Part shown: piece after piece, positions 14,384 to 19,631 of the stretch | Position numbering within the stretch: position 1 is the stretch's first letter | How the letters are laid out: every line of letters begins with the position of its first letter | NCBI RefSeq assembly: GCF_026651875.1 | Contig: NZ_CP104067.1 | Span: forward strand, 1,984,001-2,048,000 | Source: Alicyclobacillus fastidiosus | GTDB taxonomy: Bacteria > Bacillota > Bacilli > Alicyclobacillales > Alicyclobacillaceae | Reading direction: 5' to 3' | Length of the DNA: 64,000 bases | Program-made: the position numbers and the translations under genes | Notes under the pieces: generated by a model | Database searches by the model: none | What the model was told of the DNA's origin: nothing | The model's input: the letters and a program-made list of their open reading frames with translations, nothing else

Positions 14384-14920
14384 ATGGGCCAACGAAAACG
14401 GCAGAATTGGTTTACGGGATGGTTAATGCCGATTGTGATTGGTGTAGCCATCGCACTTTGTATTCGCCAATGGGTGGTCAGTGCGGCATATGTACCTTCC
14501 GAGTCAATGTACCCTGCCATTCCAAATCCGTGTTACATTCTCGTCAATAAATTGGCGACTGAAATCCACGGAGTGCAGCGCGGAGACGTCGTCGTCTTTC
14601 ACTTTCCTGACGACCCTTCGCAGTTGTATGTCAAACGCGTCATCGGGTTACCAGGTGACACGGTCAAGGTCACGTACGATGCCGTCTACATTAATGGCAA
14701 GAAACTCAATGAACCGATTATCACTCAGCCGAACGAAAATGGGCTGGGCACCTATCACGTGCCAGCGGGACACTATTTTATGATGGGTGACAATCGCCCG
14801 GTATCTGACGATAGCAGGTACTGGACTCACAAGTACGTCGCGAGGTCCGCGATTGTCGGAGAGGCAGACTTTGTTCTCTTCCCGTTTACAAAGATGAAGA
14901 GTATTCCACAACACGTGTAG
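14384..14920 (+). CDS. lepB: Signal peptidase I
   Basis: 178 residues: a short basic N-terminus, one membrane segment (WLMPIVIGVAIALCI) and an extracytoplasmic catalytic domain. The nucleophile Ser lies in PSESMYP (about residue 41) and the general-base Lys in YVKRVIGLPGD (about 84); the box E motif GDNRPVSDDSRYW is present. It cleaves signal peptides of secreted pre-proteins, as Bacillus Sip proteins do. A GTG twelve bases earlier is an alternative start, but its AAAGG is too close. Confidence 0.93.
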   Translation: MGQRKRQNWFTGWLMPIVIGVAIALCIRQWVVSAAYVPSESMYPAIPNPCYILVNKLATEIHGVQRGDVVVFHFPDDPSQLYVKRVIGLPGDTVKVTYDAVYINGKKLNEPIITQPNENGLGTYHVPAGHYFMMGDNRPVSDDSRYWTHKYVARSAIVGEADFVLFPFTKMKSIPQHV

Positions 14921-14933
14921 TCACAGCCAACGA

Positions 14934-14960
14934 AACAGCCGGCCCACAGGGTCGGCTGTT
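14934..14960. terminator. Bidirectional terminator between lepB and the MFS gene
   Basis: AACAGCCGGCC (14934-14944) pairs, with one mismatch, with GGTCGGCTGTT (14950-14960). T residues follow on the plus strand and the arm ends in A/T on both sides, so it can serve both convergent genes. Confidence 0.75.
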
Positions 14961-14984
14961 TTGGTCTGCCGCGGACCTTTTCCG

Positions 14985-15521
14985 TCAGTGAATATCCTTG
15001 CCTCTTGTCTCGTAGCCAAGCGTCACGACGATGACGAAGCCGACGAGCAATATGGCGAAGAACAGTCCGAAGATCCAGCCGTATCCCAGATGAACGCCCA
15101 GCAGCCAACCAGTGATGAACGGCGCGAGGGCACTGCCTATGCGCCCGAAGCCCGCGGCCCATCCCATGCCCGTAGCGCGTGCGACGGTCGGGAATTGCTC
15201 CACCGTAAAGATATAGGTGCCGGCAAATGCGGCGAGCATGAAGTAAGAGAGAAATAGCCCGCAAACGATGAGCATCGCCGTGCTGTTGGCAAGGCCAAAC
15301 AGCAGAGCGGCGACGGCGGCGAGAATCATGGCAGTGACCAGTGTCTTTTTGCGCCCCCAACGTTCCACCAACCACGCGGCAGTGAGGTATCCCGGGACTT
15401 GCGCCAAGGTCATCACGAGTACGTATCCAAGGCTGTGCACGAGTGAGTAGCCCTTCTCTGAGAGCACAGAGGGAAGCCAGAGAAACATGCCGTAGTAGGT
15501 GTAATTCATGACGAACCACAA
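14985..15521 (-). pseudogene. MFS transporter, 3' half (gene split by the recombinase element)
   Basis: Encodes the last 178 or so residues of a 12-helix major facilitator: LWFVMNYTYYGMFLWLPS at the split, a second-half loop motif VERWGRKK, and GRIGSALAPFITGWLLG near the end. The 5' half is at 18785-19478. Removing 3,276 bases (one 13-bp repeat plus the element) joins the two into one 405-codon frame with no frameshift or stop. The split falls at the start of the seventh membrane helix. As it stands, the gene cannot give a full transporter. The intact protein would resemble the YceI/NaiP or aromatic-acid symporter group; the substrate is unknown. Confidence 0.9.
15509..15521. repeat. Left attachment-site core (13-bp direct repeat)
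   Basis: TGACGAACCACAA, identical to 18785-18797. The identity stops on both sides, and this copy joins the 3' half of the MFS gene. It is the expected footprint of site-specific recombination by the adjacent serine recombinase. Confidence 0.9.
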
Positions 15522-15537
15522 CACCTAAGAGGGCGTA

Positions 15538-16920
15538 TTAAACGTTCCATTCAAGCGCGACTTGCTTGTCGGGAAAAACTCGGATGTTTCTGATCAAGAG
15601 CCGAATTATCTGCCGCTGTTCGGCAAATGTCAAGTCATCCCACAAGAATTGAACGGAGTCGAACGCGCCTTCGACTTGTGTGTCGTCTCGTTTGGTGCTG
15701 GCCGGTGCAGTTCCATCTTCGATTTGAACCAGGACGGCGCGACGCGACTGCTCCAGTTTTTCGAGGCGATCCTTGACCAGTCCGACCGGTAGTGCCCCCG
15801 TCTGAATCGCATCGACTAACCGGTCCCGCTGTGCCTCGAGTTGGTCCAGTTCACGTTGCAATTTGGGCAAGTGACTTGCGTTTTGCTTCGAATCTACTGG
15901 TAGCGTCCACAGATCCTCGGCTAACTCCAGGGATCGAATTCTTTCGATCACCAGCTCCTCGATTTGGTGATGGACGAAGCTGCGAGTCTTGCAGTCACCT
16001 CTGCGTTTGTTGCGGCAAACCACGCGAACGTATGTGTACACTTTCCCGGTCGCTTTCTTTTGTCGCGTGGTGATGTAATGAACCGGGCCACCGCATACGG
16101 CGCACGTCATGAGCCCGCTCAATAGATAAGGTCCGCGCGCGCCTTTGCGTGCGAGCCGCGAGTTCAACTCCCGCTGTGCAGCACGAAATGTCTCCTCGTC
16201 GATAATCGGCTCGTGCTTTCCCGCGAACTCACATCCCTTCATCACCAGTGAACCGACGTACGTGCGACGCTGAATCATCTTCAGGATGAAGGTGGGATCG
16301 ACATAGCGGCTGGTGGTGCGTTTCGCCAACCATTTGGCAATGGAACGACGGGATTCTCCGGCGATGAACTTCGCGAAAACCTCGCGAACCAGCGCCGCCT
16401 CGTCTGGGATGACCTCCAATATCCCGCGTTCGTTCATTTGGTACCCAAACGGATAGCTGGCACCGTGCCAGAGTCCGCGCCGCGCGCGCTGTTGCAAACC
16501 AAATTTCGTGCGTTCGATGATGGTGTCGCGCTCTAACTGGCCGAAGACAGCGAGAATGCCTAACATGGCACGACCTAGCGGCGTGGACGTATCAAATGGC
16601 TCTGTGGCGCTTTTAAACGCCACCTCGTGTCGGTCGAATACGTCCTCCAACAAAAACAGTACGTCTTTCTGTTTCCGCCCGAGCCTGTCCAGCTTGTAGA
16701 CTACGACCGCCTCCACCTGCCCGCGTTCCACGCAGCCAAGAAGGCGCTGCAATGCTGGCCTGTCCATGCTGGTACCTGAGTAGCCATCGTCTGTGAAGTG
16801 TTCAAAATCGGACCAGCCTTGCGATTTACAGTAGGCTTCGAGGCGTTCTATTTGGGCATCGAGCGAAAACCCGTGCGTGGATTGTTCCTCGGTCGACACC
16901 CGTTCGTACAGAGCGATCAC
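15538..16920 (-). CDS. Large serine recombinase (site-specific integrase)
   Basis: 460 residues from GTG 16920 (GGGAG eight bases upstream; the longer upstream frame is unlikely). Domains in order: the resolvase catalytic domain with the nucleophile in ALYERVSTEEQ (Ser 9), the DGYSGTSMDRP segment and LDRLGR; the Recombinase domain (about residues 150-250, including GYQMNERG and RRTYVG); a zinc ribbon with CAVCGGP near 271 and CRNKRRGDC near 300; a coiled coil rich in Leu/Arg/Glu around 345-395; and a basic C-terminus. This is the architecture of phage integrases and SpoIVCA-like recombinases. It cuts and rejoins short attP/attB sites through a Ser-DNA link and needs a directionality factor to excise. 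It lies directly at the left element end. Confidence 0.95.
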   Translation of the reverse strand: MIALYERVSTEEQSTHGFSLDAQIERLEAYCKSQGWSDFEHFTDDGYSGTSMDRPALQRLLGCVERGQVEAVVVYKLDRLGRKQKDVLFLLEDVFDRHEVAFKSATEPFDTSTPLGRAMLGILAVFGQLERDTIIERTKFGLQQRARRGLWHGASYPFGYQMNERGILEVIPDEAALVREVFAKFIAGESRRSIAKWLAKRTTSRYVDPTFILKMIQRRTYVGSLVMKGCEFAGKHEPIIDEETFRAAQRELNSRLARKGARGPYLLSGLMTCAVCGGPVHYITTRQKKATGKVYTYVRVVCRNKRRGDCKTRSFVHHQIEELVIERIRSLELAEDLWTLPVDSKQNASHLPKLQRELDQLEAQRDRLVDAIQTGALPVGLVKDRLEKLEQSRRAVLVQIEDGTAPASTKRDDTQVEGAFDSVQFLWDDLTFAEQRQIIRLLIRNIRVFPDKQVALEWNV

Positions 16921-17109
16921 GGAGCCTCTACTCCCAACGCCTCGCAGGTACCTGACATCGCCTGATAGATAGACATTCGACGCGCCCCCTTGAATGGCAT
17001 CACCACTAATACATATGAGCGGGACGCGAGTGGCCAACCCTCATGGCATGTCGCGCGCAAGCGGACAATCCAGGCCGTCATAGGCTCTATCGAAGGAGGA
17101 GTGGGGCTC

Positions 17110-17250
17110 ATGGACCAAGAGAGGTCACCATCGCTGAAAGACTTTCCGAAGCCGATTCGAGATCAGGTTATGAAGATGCTTCGTACCGCGGTAAAGCGTC
17201 GCAAAGGACGAGCAGAAGAGGAGGCTTCGCATCGGCCCGACCCCAGATAG
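17110..17250 (+). CDS. Small basic protein divergent from the recombinase
   Basis: 46 residues starting at ATG 17110, with AAGGAGGA nine bases upstream. It is strongly charged: a middle IRDQVMKMLRTAVKRRKGR helix-like stretch with many Lys/Arg, then an acidic-to-basic tail. No family is recognised. Its place, divergent from the recombinase with about 190 bases between the starts, would suit a recombination directionality factor or a small regulator, but nothing in the sequence proves this. Confidence 0.5.
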   Translation: MDQERSPSLKDFPKPIRDQVMKMLRTAVKRRKGRAEEEASHRPDPR

Positions 17251-17825
17251 CTTCAGGGGCGGTCGGCGCGCAGAGGAGTTCCTTTCGGGGCTTGGTCGCG
17301 TGCGTTTGTAGCCCGCGTGAACCTCTGGGATGAGGCGGACGCGAGCTCGCAATCGACGACGTATGTACCCGCCTGCAGGGACGACCATAACCCTCTTTGG
17401 TGTTTGCCGCTTGAACCCCTACAGACGTATTTGACCGTGGGACTTGAACTTCGAGATGAATCTCATTCACCTGGTCCCAGCGGATGATCTAGTGTAATCG
17501 GAATGTGTAAAACGAGAGACGGACAGGTGCTGAGGATGGCGCACAGAAAGTGAGATCCGGGACATGTACGTCCGCTGAAGCGGGAGTACGGGGATAGACA
17601 CCTGTGACTGAGTCCCGAATTTTGTTGCAGTCGTGCTTCCCCGCAGTCCTGATGTAGAGTATGCAGGGCCTTTAGGAGTGTGTTACCAGAGGCGTTGAGC
17701 GCCAAAGCTGAACGTATCAGTAACACGGCGATGTTTTGTCCGTCAACCGGAATAATAAGGAACATAGGAAAATATGTATGAGAACAGGAGACGCTGGGCC
17801 CCCTGACTGAGAGGGGAAACCAACA
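17251..17825. other. Non-coding stretch within the element
   Basis: 575 bases with no reading frame that I trust; a 136-codon minus-strand frame (17463-17873) has no ribosome binding site and an unconvincing composition. It holds one nested inverted repeat (17680-17726) shortly before the 38-residue gene. It may contain an RNA or control region. Confidence 0.4.
17680..17726 (+). promoter_or_regulatory. Nested inverted repeat upstream of the 38-residue gene
   Basis: GTGTTAC (17680-17686) pairs perfectly with GTAACAC (17720-17726) and encloses a small GGCG/CGCC hairpin. It could be an RNA structure or a protein-binding site. Confidence 0.4.
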
Positions 17826-17942
17826 TTGAAAGACACCATGTTCGCCCTGAAAATCGCGTTCTTGCTGCTTCAAGTCGCTTCAGGCTCAATCCAACTGGTG
17901 CGTCAATGGAAGCGCAAAAAATCGAAAAGATCTCGTGTGTAA
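17826..17942 (+). CDS. 38-residue membrane peptide with basic tail (type I toxin-like)
   Basis: TTG start at 17826 with GAGGGG nine bases upstream. The peptide has one hydrophobic helix (FALKIAFLLLQVASG) and a tail of Lys/Arg (RQWKRKKSKRSR). A terminator hairpin begins at its stop codon, so it looks like a real short gene with its own transcript end. This shape is shared by type I toxins and small holin-like peptides of Bacillota mobile elements. No antisense RNA promoter was identified by eye, so the toxin reading is only a hypothesis. Confidence 0.55.
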   Translation: MKDTMFALKIAFLLLQVASGSIQLVRQWKRKKSKRSRV

Positions 17943-17962
17943 GGTGCAGCTTACACCACTTT
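17937..17962 (+). terminator. Terminator of the 38-residue gene
   Basis: GTGTAAG (17937-17943) pairs perfectly with CTTACAC (17950-17956); a T-rich run (CACTTTTG) follows. The stem includes the TAA stop. Confidence 0.65.
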
Positions 17963-18179
17963 TGATTTAGCGAATTCTAGGGGGCTAGCGCCTTCTGCAC
18001 TCATCTTCACAGCGTGGTGCGGACAATCTTCAAGAGTTTCGTAACACTTTAACTGTATGCAGGTTCGATCCTCGATAGCACCCGGATACCGGAGCTCACG
18101 ATGGGCCTAAATCGTTTGAAACATTCCTGTGTGGCGGCTCGTCTAATTCAGTAACAACCCGAAAACGGAGGGCCTCACC

Positions 18180-18278
18180 ATGAAGAGATACCAATTCCGA
18201 GATTTTGTCTGGGTAGCGACGGGAACAGCCATCATCTGTTGCATCATCGCCGCGAGCGTCGCTCGACTGATGTTATAA
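18180..18278 (+). CDS. 32-residue single-pass membrane peptide
   Basis: ATG 18180 with GGAGGG seven bases upstream, 33 codons including the stop. The N-terminus is charged (KRYQFRD), then one hydrophobic helix (VWVATGTAIICCIIAASVA) and a short RLML end. Two adjacent Cys lie in the helix. No family is recognised. The strong ribosome binding site and clean membrane profile argue that it is translated. It may act with, or resemble, the 38-residue peptide upstream. Confidence 0.5.
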   Translation: MKRYQFRDFVWVATGTAIICCIIAASVARLML

Positions 18279-18279
18279 A

Positions 18280-18323
18280 GCACGCGCTCGGCCTGCGTGG
18301 CCCCACTACACCATGGCGCGTGC
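18280..18323 (+). repeat. 8-bp inverted repeat after the 32-residue gene
   Basis: GCACGCGC (18280-18287) and GCGCGTGC (18316-18323) are perfect complements 28 bases apart, directly after the stop. There is no T run, so it is not a classic terminator. Confidence 0.4.
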
Positions 18324-18477
18324 ATACCGTTTAGCGGTACATATCGAAACTCGACTCTGCATCCATCAGGCAATCTCGCTTCTTCACAATATCGATATAT
18401 TTGCCGTTCTCTCTCTGTCGAGATAGTGCATACGCTGTTTGGTCTGCGCTTATCACCCGACATAAAGGAGAGCATGC

Positions 18478-18675
18478 ATGAGACAACATGATTATGTCAC
18501 ACAGTTGATGTTGCGACATCAACAAGCACGCTTGGAGAGAGTCAATCGAACGCATTGGATGTATAGGGACTTGCCGACATCCGGTTCCTTTGCGAGGAGG
18601 TGGGTGGCGCGCCTGCGGAAGCGGCCGTTCATTCGCAATGGGTTCGTCCATCCAGTCGGAGCCGACAGTGAATGA
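18478..18675 (+). CDS. 65-residue basic protein of the element
   Basis: ATG 18478 with AAAGGAGA seven bases upstream. The protein is rich in Arg and His (HQQARLERVNRTH, RRWVARLRKRPF) and has no hydrophobic segment. No family is recognised; a nucleic-acid-binding role would suit the charge but is a guess. It is the last gene before the right-end terminator and attachment site. Confidence 0.5.
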   Translation: MRQHDYVTQLMLRHQQARLERVNRTHWMYRDLPTSGSFARRWVARLRKRPFIRNGFVHPVGADSE

Positions 18676-18714
18676 CGCAACGCATCTGATATTCGCCACC
18701 TAGACAGGAAAGAA

Positions 18715-18761
18715 GCCCCCTCTACCAGTGGGTTGCGCCATGCGTTTCCGCTAGAGGGGGC
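18715..18761 (+). terminator. Right-end terminator of the element
   Basis: GCCCCCTCTA (18715-18724) pairs perfectly with TAGAGGGGGC (18752-18761) across a 27-base loop, followed by a short T-rich GGTTTATG. It lies 24 bases inside the right core and would insulate the MFS half from the element. Confidence 0.65.
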
Positions 18762-18784
18762 GGTTTATGTATGTAGTGGGTGCC

Positions 18785-18797
18785 TGACGAACCACAA
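18785..18797. repeat. Right attachment-site core (13-bp direct repeat)
   Basis: TGACGAACCACAA, the partner of 15509-15521. It joins the 5' half of the MFS gene. Confidence 0.9.
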
Positions 18798-19478
18798 AAT
18801 CCAGGTCACAACCGACCGACGGGCGATACCTTTCTTCCAGACTTGGCGCAAGGCGGTCCCCATGGAAGGTCGCTGTTCGAGTCTCGCGTACTTCGGTGTT
18901 TCCGGAAGGGCGAAGCGAAGGACGATAGTGTACAGCGCTGGGATTGCACCTAACAGAAATACGACCCGCCAACCAGAGTGAGGGATGACAAAGAACGAAA
19001 CGAGTGCGGCCACGAGCGAACCAAACGCCCAGAACATCTCGAGAAAGACGACGCGGCGGCCGCGCACCTTCTCCGGCGACGACTCGAGTACATAGGTGGT
19101 CGCTACCGGCAGTTCGCCTCCAAGCCCCAGTCCGACGAAGAACCGCAGGACACAGAAGATCCCTATCCCCGCGGCAAAGGCCGACAACCCCGTTGCAATA
19201 CTGTAGATCAACAAGGTGAACAGGAAGATGTTTCGGCGTCCAAATTTATCCGCTAGCGAACCTGCAAAGGCGGATCCGACCGCCATACCAATCGAACTGA
19301 CGCTGCCAATCAACCCAGTGACGGTGGTGGACAGGTGCCAATCCTTGGAAAGCGACACGAGTACGTAGGACAGGAGTCCGACGTCAAACGAGTCGAACAA
19401 CAAGCCGAAGCCGGAAGACGTGAGAATCCGGGCGGCCGAGACCGGCTTTGGCCCGACGAGTGTCGATGTACTTGCCAT
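18785..19478 (-). pseudogene. MFS transporter, 5' half (gene split by the recombinase element)
   Basis: Encodes residues 1-231 of the transporter; the frame then runs six codons into the element before a stop at 18765. It contains helices 1-6, the FDSFDVGLLSYVL segment of helix 1, and the cytoplasmic signature GSLADKFGRRN near residue 74. ATG 19478 has GAGGAGCG about ten bases upstream. Both halves are otherwise undamaged, which means the insertion is recent or is still removed at times. The YceI/NaiP-like or aromatic-acid symporter-like N-terminus suggests uptake of a small organic acid (inference). Confidence 0.9.
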
Positions 19479-19631
19479 CTGTGGTTCACGCTCCTCTCAA
19501 CTGAACTTCTAGACCCATATATGAGCGCGCCCAAACTTCTGTGCATGCCAAAGCGCAAGGAATTTTGCGATCGGTGTCGAATCTGTCATGATTGAACCGA
19601 ACGTATGTTTTGTTTCGAAGGGGAGGACCAG

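Follow-up and report, generated by a model that had tools for sequence, protein, structure and literature searches.

A 64,000-nucleotide stretch of the Alicyclobacillus fastidiosus genome (contig NZ_CP104067.1, positions 1,984,001 to 2,048,000; hereafter the window) carries on its minus strand a transporter gene of the major facilitator superfamily (MFS) that is split into an N-terminal and a C-terminal part by a 3,276-bp element with a serine recombinase gene. Both parts are open, and Pfam analysis of the open reading frames (ORFs) assigned them to the N- and C-terminal portions of MFS_1/Sugar_tr. Both borders of the element consist of the exact 13-bp repeat TGACGAACCACAA, with a copy-to-copy distance of 3,276 bp. 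These two exact copies are the only matches in the window when up to two mismatches are allowed; because about 1.9 matches would be expected by chance at two mismatches, the weight of the evidence lies in the exactness and the position of the repeats. In comparison with the uninterrupted gene of a relative (G007), the DNA loses and regains homology exactly at the repeats. We rejected a chance repeat on the ground of this location at the homology borders, and an assembly artefact because the identical split is seen in three separate genomes. Joining the flanks by script gave, in silico, an open frame of 405 amino acids with ..WILWFVMNYTYYG.. at the joint. The original prediction, drawn from the letters of the window, had proposed 13-bp flanking repeats, otherwise intact halves and an exact removal in frame; we recovered the repeats at the same coordinates and with the same exact identity, found both halves open with their family matches, and re-obtained the 405-codon frame.

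The element's largest gene encodes a recombinase with the Resolvase, Recombinase and Zn_ribbon_recom domains of Pfam, which agrees with the serine recombinase proposed earlier. Alignment with relatives identifies the GTG at 16920, rather than the TTG at 17037, as its start codon, the frame is open, and the region of the catalytic serine is conserved. With the recombinases of G004 and G013, two relatives in which the same gene is split, it shares 61% and 59% identity, respectively. A gene for a basic 46-residue protein is divergent from the recombinase gene in all three elements, and its homologues at E≤1e-5 were found in G004 and G013 only, among 41 genomes of the family, with aligned frames; two weaker matches in family genomes, with E values of 0.06 and 0.09, are likely to be noise. 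Neither phages, searched at E≤1, nor PHROGs yielded a match to the protein. Its conserved place beside the recombinase makes it a candidate excision or directionality factor. The features are listed in Table 1.

Table 1. Features of the split MFS gene and of the element, in window coordinates
Feature	Position	Strand	Remarks
MFS gene, C-terminal part	14985..15524	-	174 codons from MNYTYYG
Attachment site, end of the C half	15509..15521	-	One copy of the 13-bp repeat, with the crossover proposed at 15514-15515
Large serine recombinase, 460 aa, GTG start	15538..16920	-	Pfam PF00239/PF07508/PF13408; PHROG 95 integrase
46-aa basic protein, candidate recombination directionality factor	17110..17250	+	Divergent from recombinase; strong Shine-Dalgarno (-12.2)
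Repeated module with ORF for 38-aa hydrophobic + KRKK peptide	17721..18081 (ORF 17826-17942, TTG start)	+	
32-aa hydrophobic ORF	18180..18278	+	Shine-Dalgarno -10.0; no relative found; no Pfam/PHROG match
65-aa ORF	18478..18675	+	Shine-Dalgarno -8.8; no relative found; no Pfam/PHROG match
MFS gene, N-terminal part	18765..19478	-	228 codons up to WIL, followed by the core and a 7-aa element-derived tail
Attachment site, end of the N half	18785..18797	-	Proposed crossover TT (AA on +) at 18790-18791
Promoter-like AC-N17-CATA motif upstream of the MFS gene	19520..19542	-	Same place in 15/15 genus genomes

Searches for a known class of mobile element were negative. Among the nine element ORFs searched, the recombinase was the sole match, with no phage structural, replication or lysis family and, by Pfam, no relaxase or transfer family, in line with the earlier claim that phage and conjugation genes are absent. 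Relaxase and transfer families were likewise absent from nine cargo ORFs searched in G004 and G013, a part of the ORFs of the 20-kb element. A staphylococcal cassette chromosome was not indicated either, as CcrB reached 163 bits against a cut-off of 900 and CcrA and CcrC were also far below. The eight ORFs other than the recombinase had no Pfam match, the four of these eight that were compared with PHROGs had none there either, and Rfam gave nothing at E≤1 in the region 14900-19500.

We compared the locus in 15 genomes of the genus, including that of the window itself (G000, 6.04 Mb), and in a wider sample of 61 relatives. Within the genus, the MFS gene is whole in 12 genomes and split in three (G000, G004 and G013); among the 61 relatives it is whole in 47, split in the same number of three, and has no match at E≤1e-100 in 11. 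When these 11 and one more genome were searched again at 1e-30, full-length homologues alone appeared, in six of the 12 (29-33% identity), none of them split. The original prediction had suggested looking for uninterrupted homologues across the junction, which exist in the 12 genus genomes with a whole gene, and for the same element at other sites, of which we found no second copy in the genus; element DNA beyond the recombinase matched the peptide module of Table 1 and three short stretches. In G004 and G013, the gene is split at the same codon as in the window, with the recombinase at the C-half end in the same orientation, by elements of 20,300 and 9,675 bp, respectively. Both carry, in the same order, genes for a beta-helix protein, a DUF1796 protein, a secreted 179-residue protein, a fatty acid desaturase, a YdjO-type protein and an MFS exporter, and the ORFs of the G004 element also include transposases and other genes. 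The desaturase, a cold-shock protein (G013) and the protein of the "cold-inducible" YdjO family in this cargo (L058 and L059 in G004; L060 in G013) possibly form a cold-adaptation set. Scans with the recombinase alignment returned one relative from genome contigs (Alicyclobacillus suci record NZ_JAFMTW010000003.1), five from viral contigs at 29-33% identity, 1,431 phage records, every one below 60% identity, and at least 5,000 plasmid records, all those listed being below 60%. The same recombinase used as a query finds 17 places in G000 at E≤0.001, some with internal stops, that is, many serine recombinase genes or their remnants.

Besides the recombinase and the 46-residue protein, the element has three small ORFs with fair Shine-Dalgarno sequences. 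The module that surrounds the 38-residue peptide ORF occurs in ten copies in five of the 41 family genomes, nine of which were aligned. The peptide has 33-38 residues, is hydrophobic with a basic KRKK stretch at its end, and is open in all nine aligned copies; an inverted repeat GTGTAAG..CTTACAC lies 3' of it. Such a composition resembles that of a type I toxin, and the peptide may be one. Further copies of the module lie in the window's genome at G000:C1:984685-985049 (L063) and G000:C1:3522436-3522680 (L064), and in the relatives G004 (L065, L068), G006 (L066, L069), G007 (L070) and G013 (L067, L054). One copy adjoins a different serine recombinase (G000:C1:3523151-3524506).

Compared with the uninterrupted site of G007, all junctions have TGGTT in common, and the 13-bp repeat of the window is longer than the core common to G004 and G013. 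In both G004 and G013, the re-formed attP is a palindrome at 20 of 24 positions with a central TT inside TGGTT, whereas the best palindrome among 5000 random sequences reached 16. The TT crossover proposed for the window sites was transferred from this palindrome.

The gene trees of MFS and dpaA are concordant, ((G004,G013),(G000,G007)) with G006 outside. Between G004 and G013, the synonymous divergence (dS) is 0.22 for dpaA, 0.22 and 0.25 for the two MFS halves, 0.25 for the recombinase and 0.23-0.42 for six cargo genes; such similar values for element and host genes fit vertical inheritance, and the simplest reading is one insertion that predates the split of these two species. A recent arrival, one of the possibilities named in the original prediction, is not supported: two sister species have orthologous, larger elements at this site, and in them these appear to be vertically inherited. 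The nonsynonymous divergence (dN) of the recombinase exceeds that of the MFS gene by a factor of about 4 between G000 and G004 (0.33 vs about 0.08) and of about 7 between G004 and G013 (0.043 vs 0.006), so that an insertion in the common ancestor followed by a clean loss in G007 is possible. Alternatively, there may have been two independent insertions.

The halves of G004 and G013 differ by 34.0 and 26.5 silent changes but by only 3.0 and 2.5 amino-acid changes, against the roughly 178 amino-acid changes expected in the halves without selection by arithmetic from dS. Their dN/dS ratios (omega), 0.028 and 0.026, are like those of whole-gene pairs, which range over 0.01-0.19 in the 18 comparisons listed. 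At our search threshold, neither genome contains any intact copy of the gene. Many silent and few amino-acid changes since the insertion indicate that the split transporter is still under selection in these two species, and with both halves selected, excision probably takes place at times when the transporter is required. Beyond the core, where it runs into the element, the N-half frame shows the opposite pattern over 37 codons (seven amino-acid changes and no silent one between G004 and G013, vs one and eight in the preceding 37 codons), and the stop of this tail shifts between the split genomes.

The element might instead be a parasitic island that entered the lineage of the window, killed the transporter gene and decays along with it. 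The gene is whole in G007, the sister by the tree, a clear attP palindrome is missing from the G000 element, and an unsplit MFS paralogue elsewhere in that genome, with 66% identity to the split gene (G000:C1:5691693-5692874, L036), could compensate for the loss. However, counted from G004, G000 and G007 have nearly the same number of amino-acid changes in the N half (35.5 and 36.0) and in the C half (30.2 and 29.2); the two being equally far, there is no relaxation in G000, and we rejected gene decay there on this comparison with G007. Together with the open recombinase frame, its conserved catalytic serine region and the occupation of the same site, under selection, in two sister species, this makes an island of that kind improbable.

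A second alternative is that the two halves act as separate chains of a split transporter, with the N half expressed from a promoter of its own, the C half translated behind the recombinase and no excision needed. Split MFS permeases can function, as fragments of LacY do. The C-half frame opens 14 nt past the recombinase stop on the same strand, and in G000 its start has a Shine-Dalgarno value of -6.2, close to the -6.8 of the recombinase. In G004 and G013, by contrast, this start is nearly without a Shine-Dalgarno sequence (-3.5 vs -11.8 for the N half), the N-half tail and stop are not conserved (7, 53 and 37 residues in the three split genomes), and the break would fall in transmembrane helix 7, a placement by position that a hydropathy scan did not resolve. 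We consider separate chains unlikely, and the least probable of the three alternatives weighed here.

The timing of a possible excision is suggested by the region upstream of the MFS gene. Its promoter-like motif recurs, as AC-N16-18-CATA, in 13 of the 13 other family upstream regions properly read, a count that leaves out G015, G025, G020 and G019. In all 15 genus genomes, AC-N17-CATANNNTA precedes dpaA, with a spacing equal to that of the MFS motif. In Bacillus subtilis, dpaA is a late mother-cell gene. The gene spoVFB, which belongs to the same enzyme, is described as one of the mother cell (PMC6957869). The MFS gene is likely to be expressed in the mother cell. Two further markers were of no help: GerPA, tried as an extra sigma-K marker, was found in three of 15 genomes, none above the cut-off, and the SpoIVA upstream regions gave no clear motif for comparison, some starts being misassigned.

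A third alternative is a reversible switch in growing cells, in which a signal makes the element exit the MFS gene and return to it. Listeria phage A118 in comK is an active lysogeny switch of this kind; like the window element, it has a serine integrase and a split host gene, and the phage relatives listed include integrases of the A118 type, with 32% identity. A118 differs in being a phage, in this low identity and in switching in vegetative or intracellular cells. Such a switch would explain the selection on both halves equally well, and the identical 13-bp cores in G000 permit both directions. Yet Pfam and PHROGs revealed no regulator- or replication-like gene in the 3.3 kb, and without a replication gene a free circle would be lost during growth; the upstream motif is also nearer to late sporulation than to vegetative promoters, though weakly. 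One-way excision in the mother cell would agree better with the genus, with the promoter-like motif and with the literature than this switch, which is possible in itself; we consider the switch unlikely, if the least unlikely of the three.

We therefore favor, as probable though far from certain, a stripped-down gene-intervening element that is excised in the sporulating mother cell and thereby restores the transporter. It would be a non-phage element of the gin and skin kind, in which the serine recombinase and the 46-residue directionality factor recombine the two attachment sites, release the 3.3 kb as a circle and rejoin the MFS gene in frame. Excision would most likely take place in the mother cell late in sporulation, when the transporter is needed, and the forespore would retain the element and pass it on vertically, as with gin, skin and SPbeta. 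The insertion site, the in-frame joint, the orthologous elements at one codon in two sister species and the purifying selection on both gene halves in those species are established, whereas the excision itself, its confinement to the mother cell and the role of the 46-residue protein are inferred.

Several observations count against this proposal. The excised junction and the circle are inferred rather than observed, and the MFS gene lies outside the known sporulation genes. The attP of the window is a palindrome at just 10 of 24 positions, which is chance level, and the activity of the window element is less certain because the clear palindrome of its relatives is missing and its 13-bp repeat exceeds their common core. 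The -10 sites of the MFS genes have no final TA as in the dpaA sites, and the fit to the sigma-K consensus is incomplete; AC-N16-18-CATA was found in 17% of shuffled upstream regions, and the related genomes are not independent. A promoter matrix built from 15 dpaA and six yabG sites selected the aligned MFS site in 12 of the 15 genomes and another site in G000, G004 and G013; taken alone, the G000 motif is not significant, as 298 of 2000 shuffles scored as high. Of the 15 YabG upstream regions, 11 were read and just six have the motif. The 37-codon tail overlaps in part the end of an antisense cargo gene, which may shape its changes, and omega between G000 and G007 (0.11 in the N half, 0.05 in the C half) lies above the G004-G013 values.

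Should the proposal hold, developmental DNA excision would not be limited to coat genes and recognised regulators of sporulation but would include a membrane transporter, a hint that the mother cell has a step of solute transport which is still unstudied. Together, the three species offer a natural size series at one site (20.3, 9.7 and 3.3 kb) showing what an element can lose, and the 3.3-kb form is small enough to be cloned whole into Bacillus subtilis, where recombinase, directionality factor and timing could be tested in one construct. It is conceivable, though on balance doubtful, that the window element is the smallest self-contained cassette known for developmental gene splitting, consisting of a recombinase, the 46-residue excision factor and a toxin-like stabilising peptide and lying in a late mother-cell transporter gene, with cargo lost from a larger element at one codon across several Alicyclobacillus species.

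Relatives of the window recombinase at 41-42% identity in G007 and G002 adjoin helix-turn-helix and IrrE-like genes and abut a 59-residue N-terminal piece of SpoVR (by Pfam) next to an intact YhbH gene, which suggests that this branch of recombinases also splits a sporulation gene in the genus. The spoVR gene is apparently split there after 59 codons (L071:8401-8654, L072:5126-5302) by elements with these genes and this recombinase. The element vrin splits spoVR in Geobacillus (PMC4191935), and skin (sigK), SPbeta (spsM), vfbin (spoVFB) and vrin are prophages or prophage-derived and lie in recognised sporulation genes, unlike the window element (PMC4191935, PMC6957869). The prophage MMB025, which lies in sigK of Alicyclobacillus acidoterrestris DSM 3922, comes from the same genus and has an integrase of the SpoIVCA type, a split gene that can be rejoined and inverted repeats around a short core, but it is a 105-kb infectious phage in another target gene (PMC13141910). 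The original prediction knew of no described element of this type, which was too strong, since gin in gerE of Bacillus cereus is a non-phage element with serine recombinases. In strain ATCC10987, GirC and the 42-residue GirX are required for gin excision (PMC5595907). According to this source, gin has 31 genes, three recombinases, a known mother-cell regulator as the split gene and a proven excision, compared with one recombinase, 3.3 kb, a transporter gene and a predicted excision in the window. As described there, gin resembles the window element in that it is non-phage, splits a coding gene, pairs a serine recombinase with a tiny protein (42 residues in gin, 46 here), has a short core (9 bp in gin, 13 bp in the window, 5 bp common to the three species here) and carries cargo that differs between strains. 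No intervening element in a transporter gene, or of 3.3 kb, appears in the papers listed by our literature searches, as judged by titles and the beginnings of abstracts. The window element is thus a new case of the known gene-intervening elements, new in its transporter target gene and its unusually small size.

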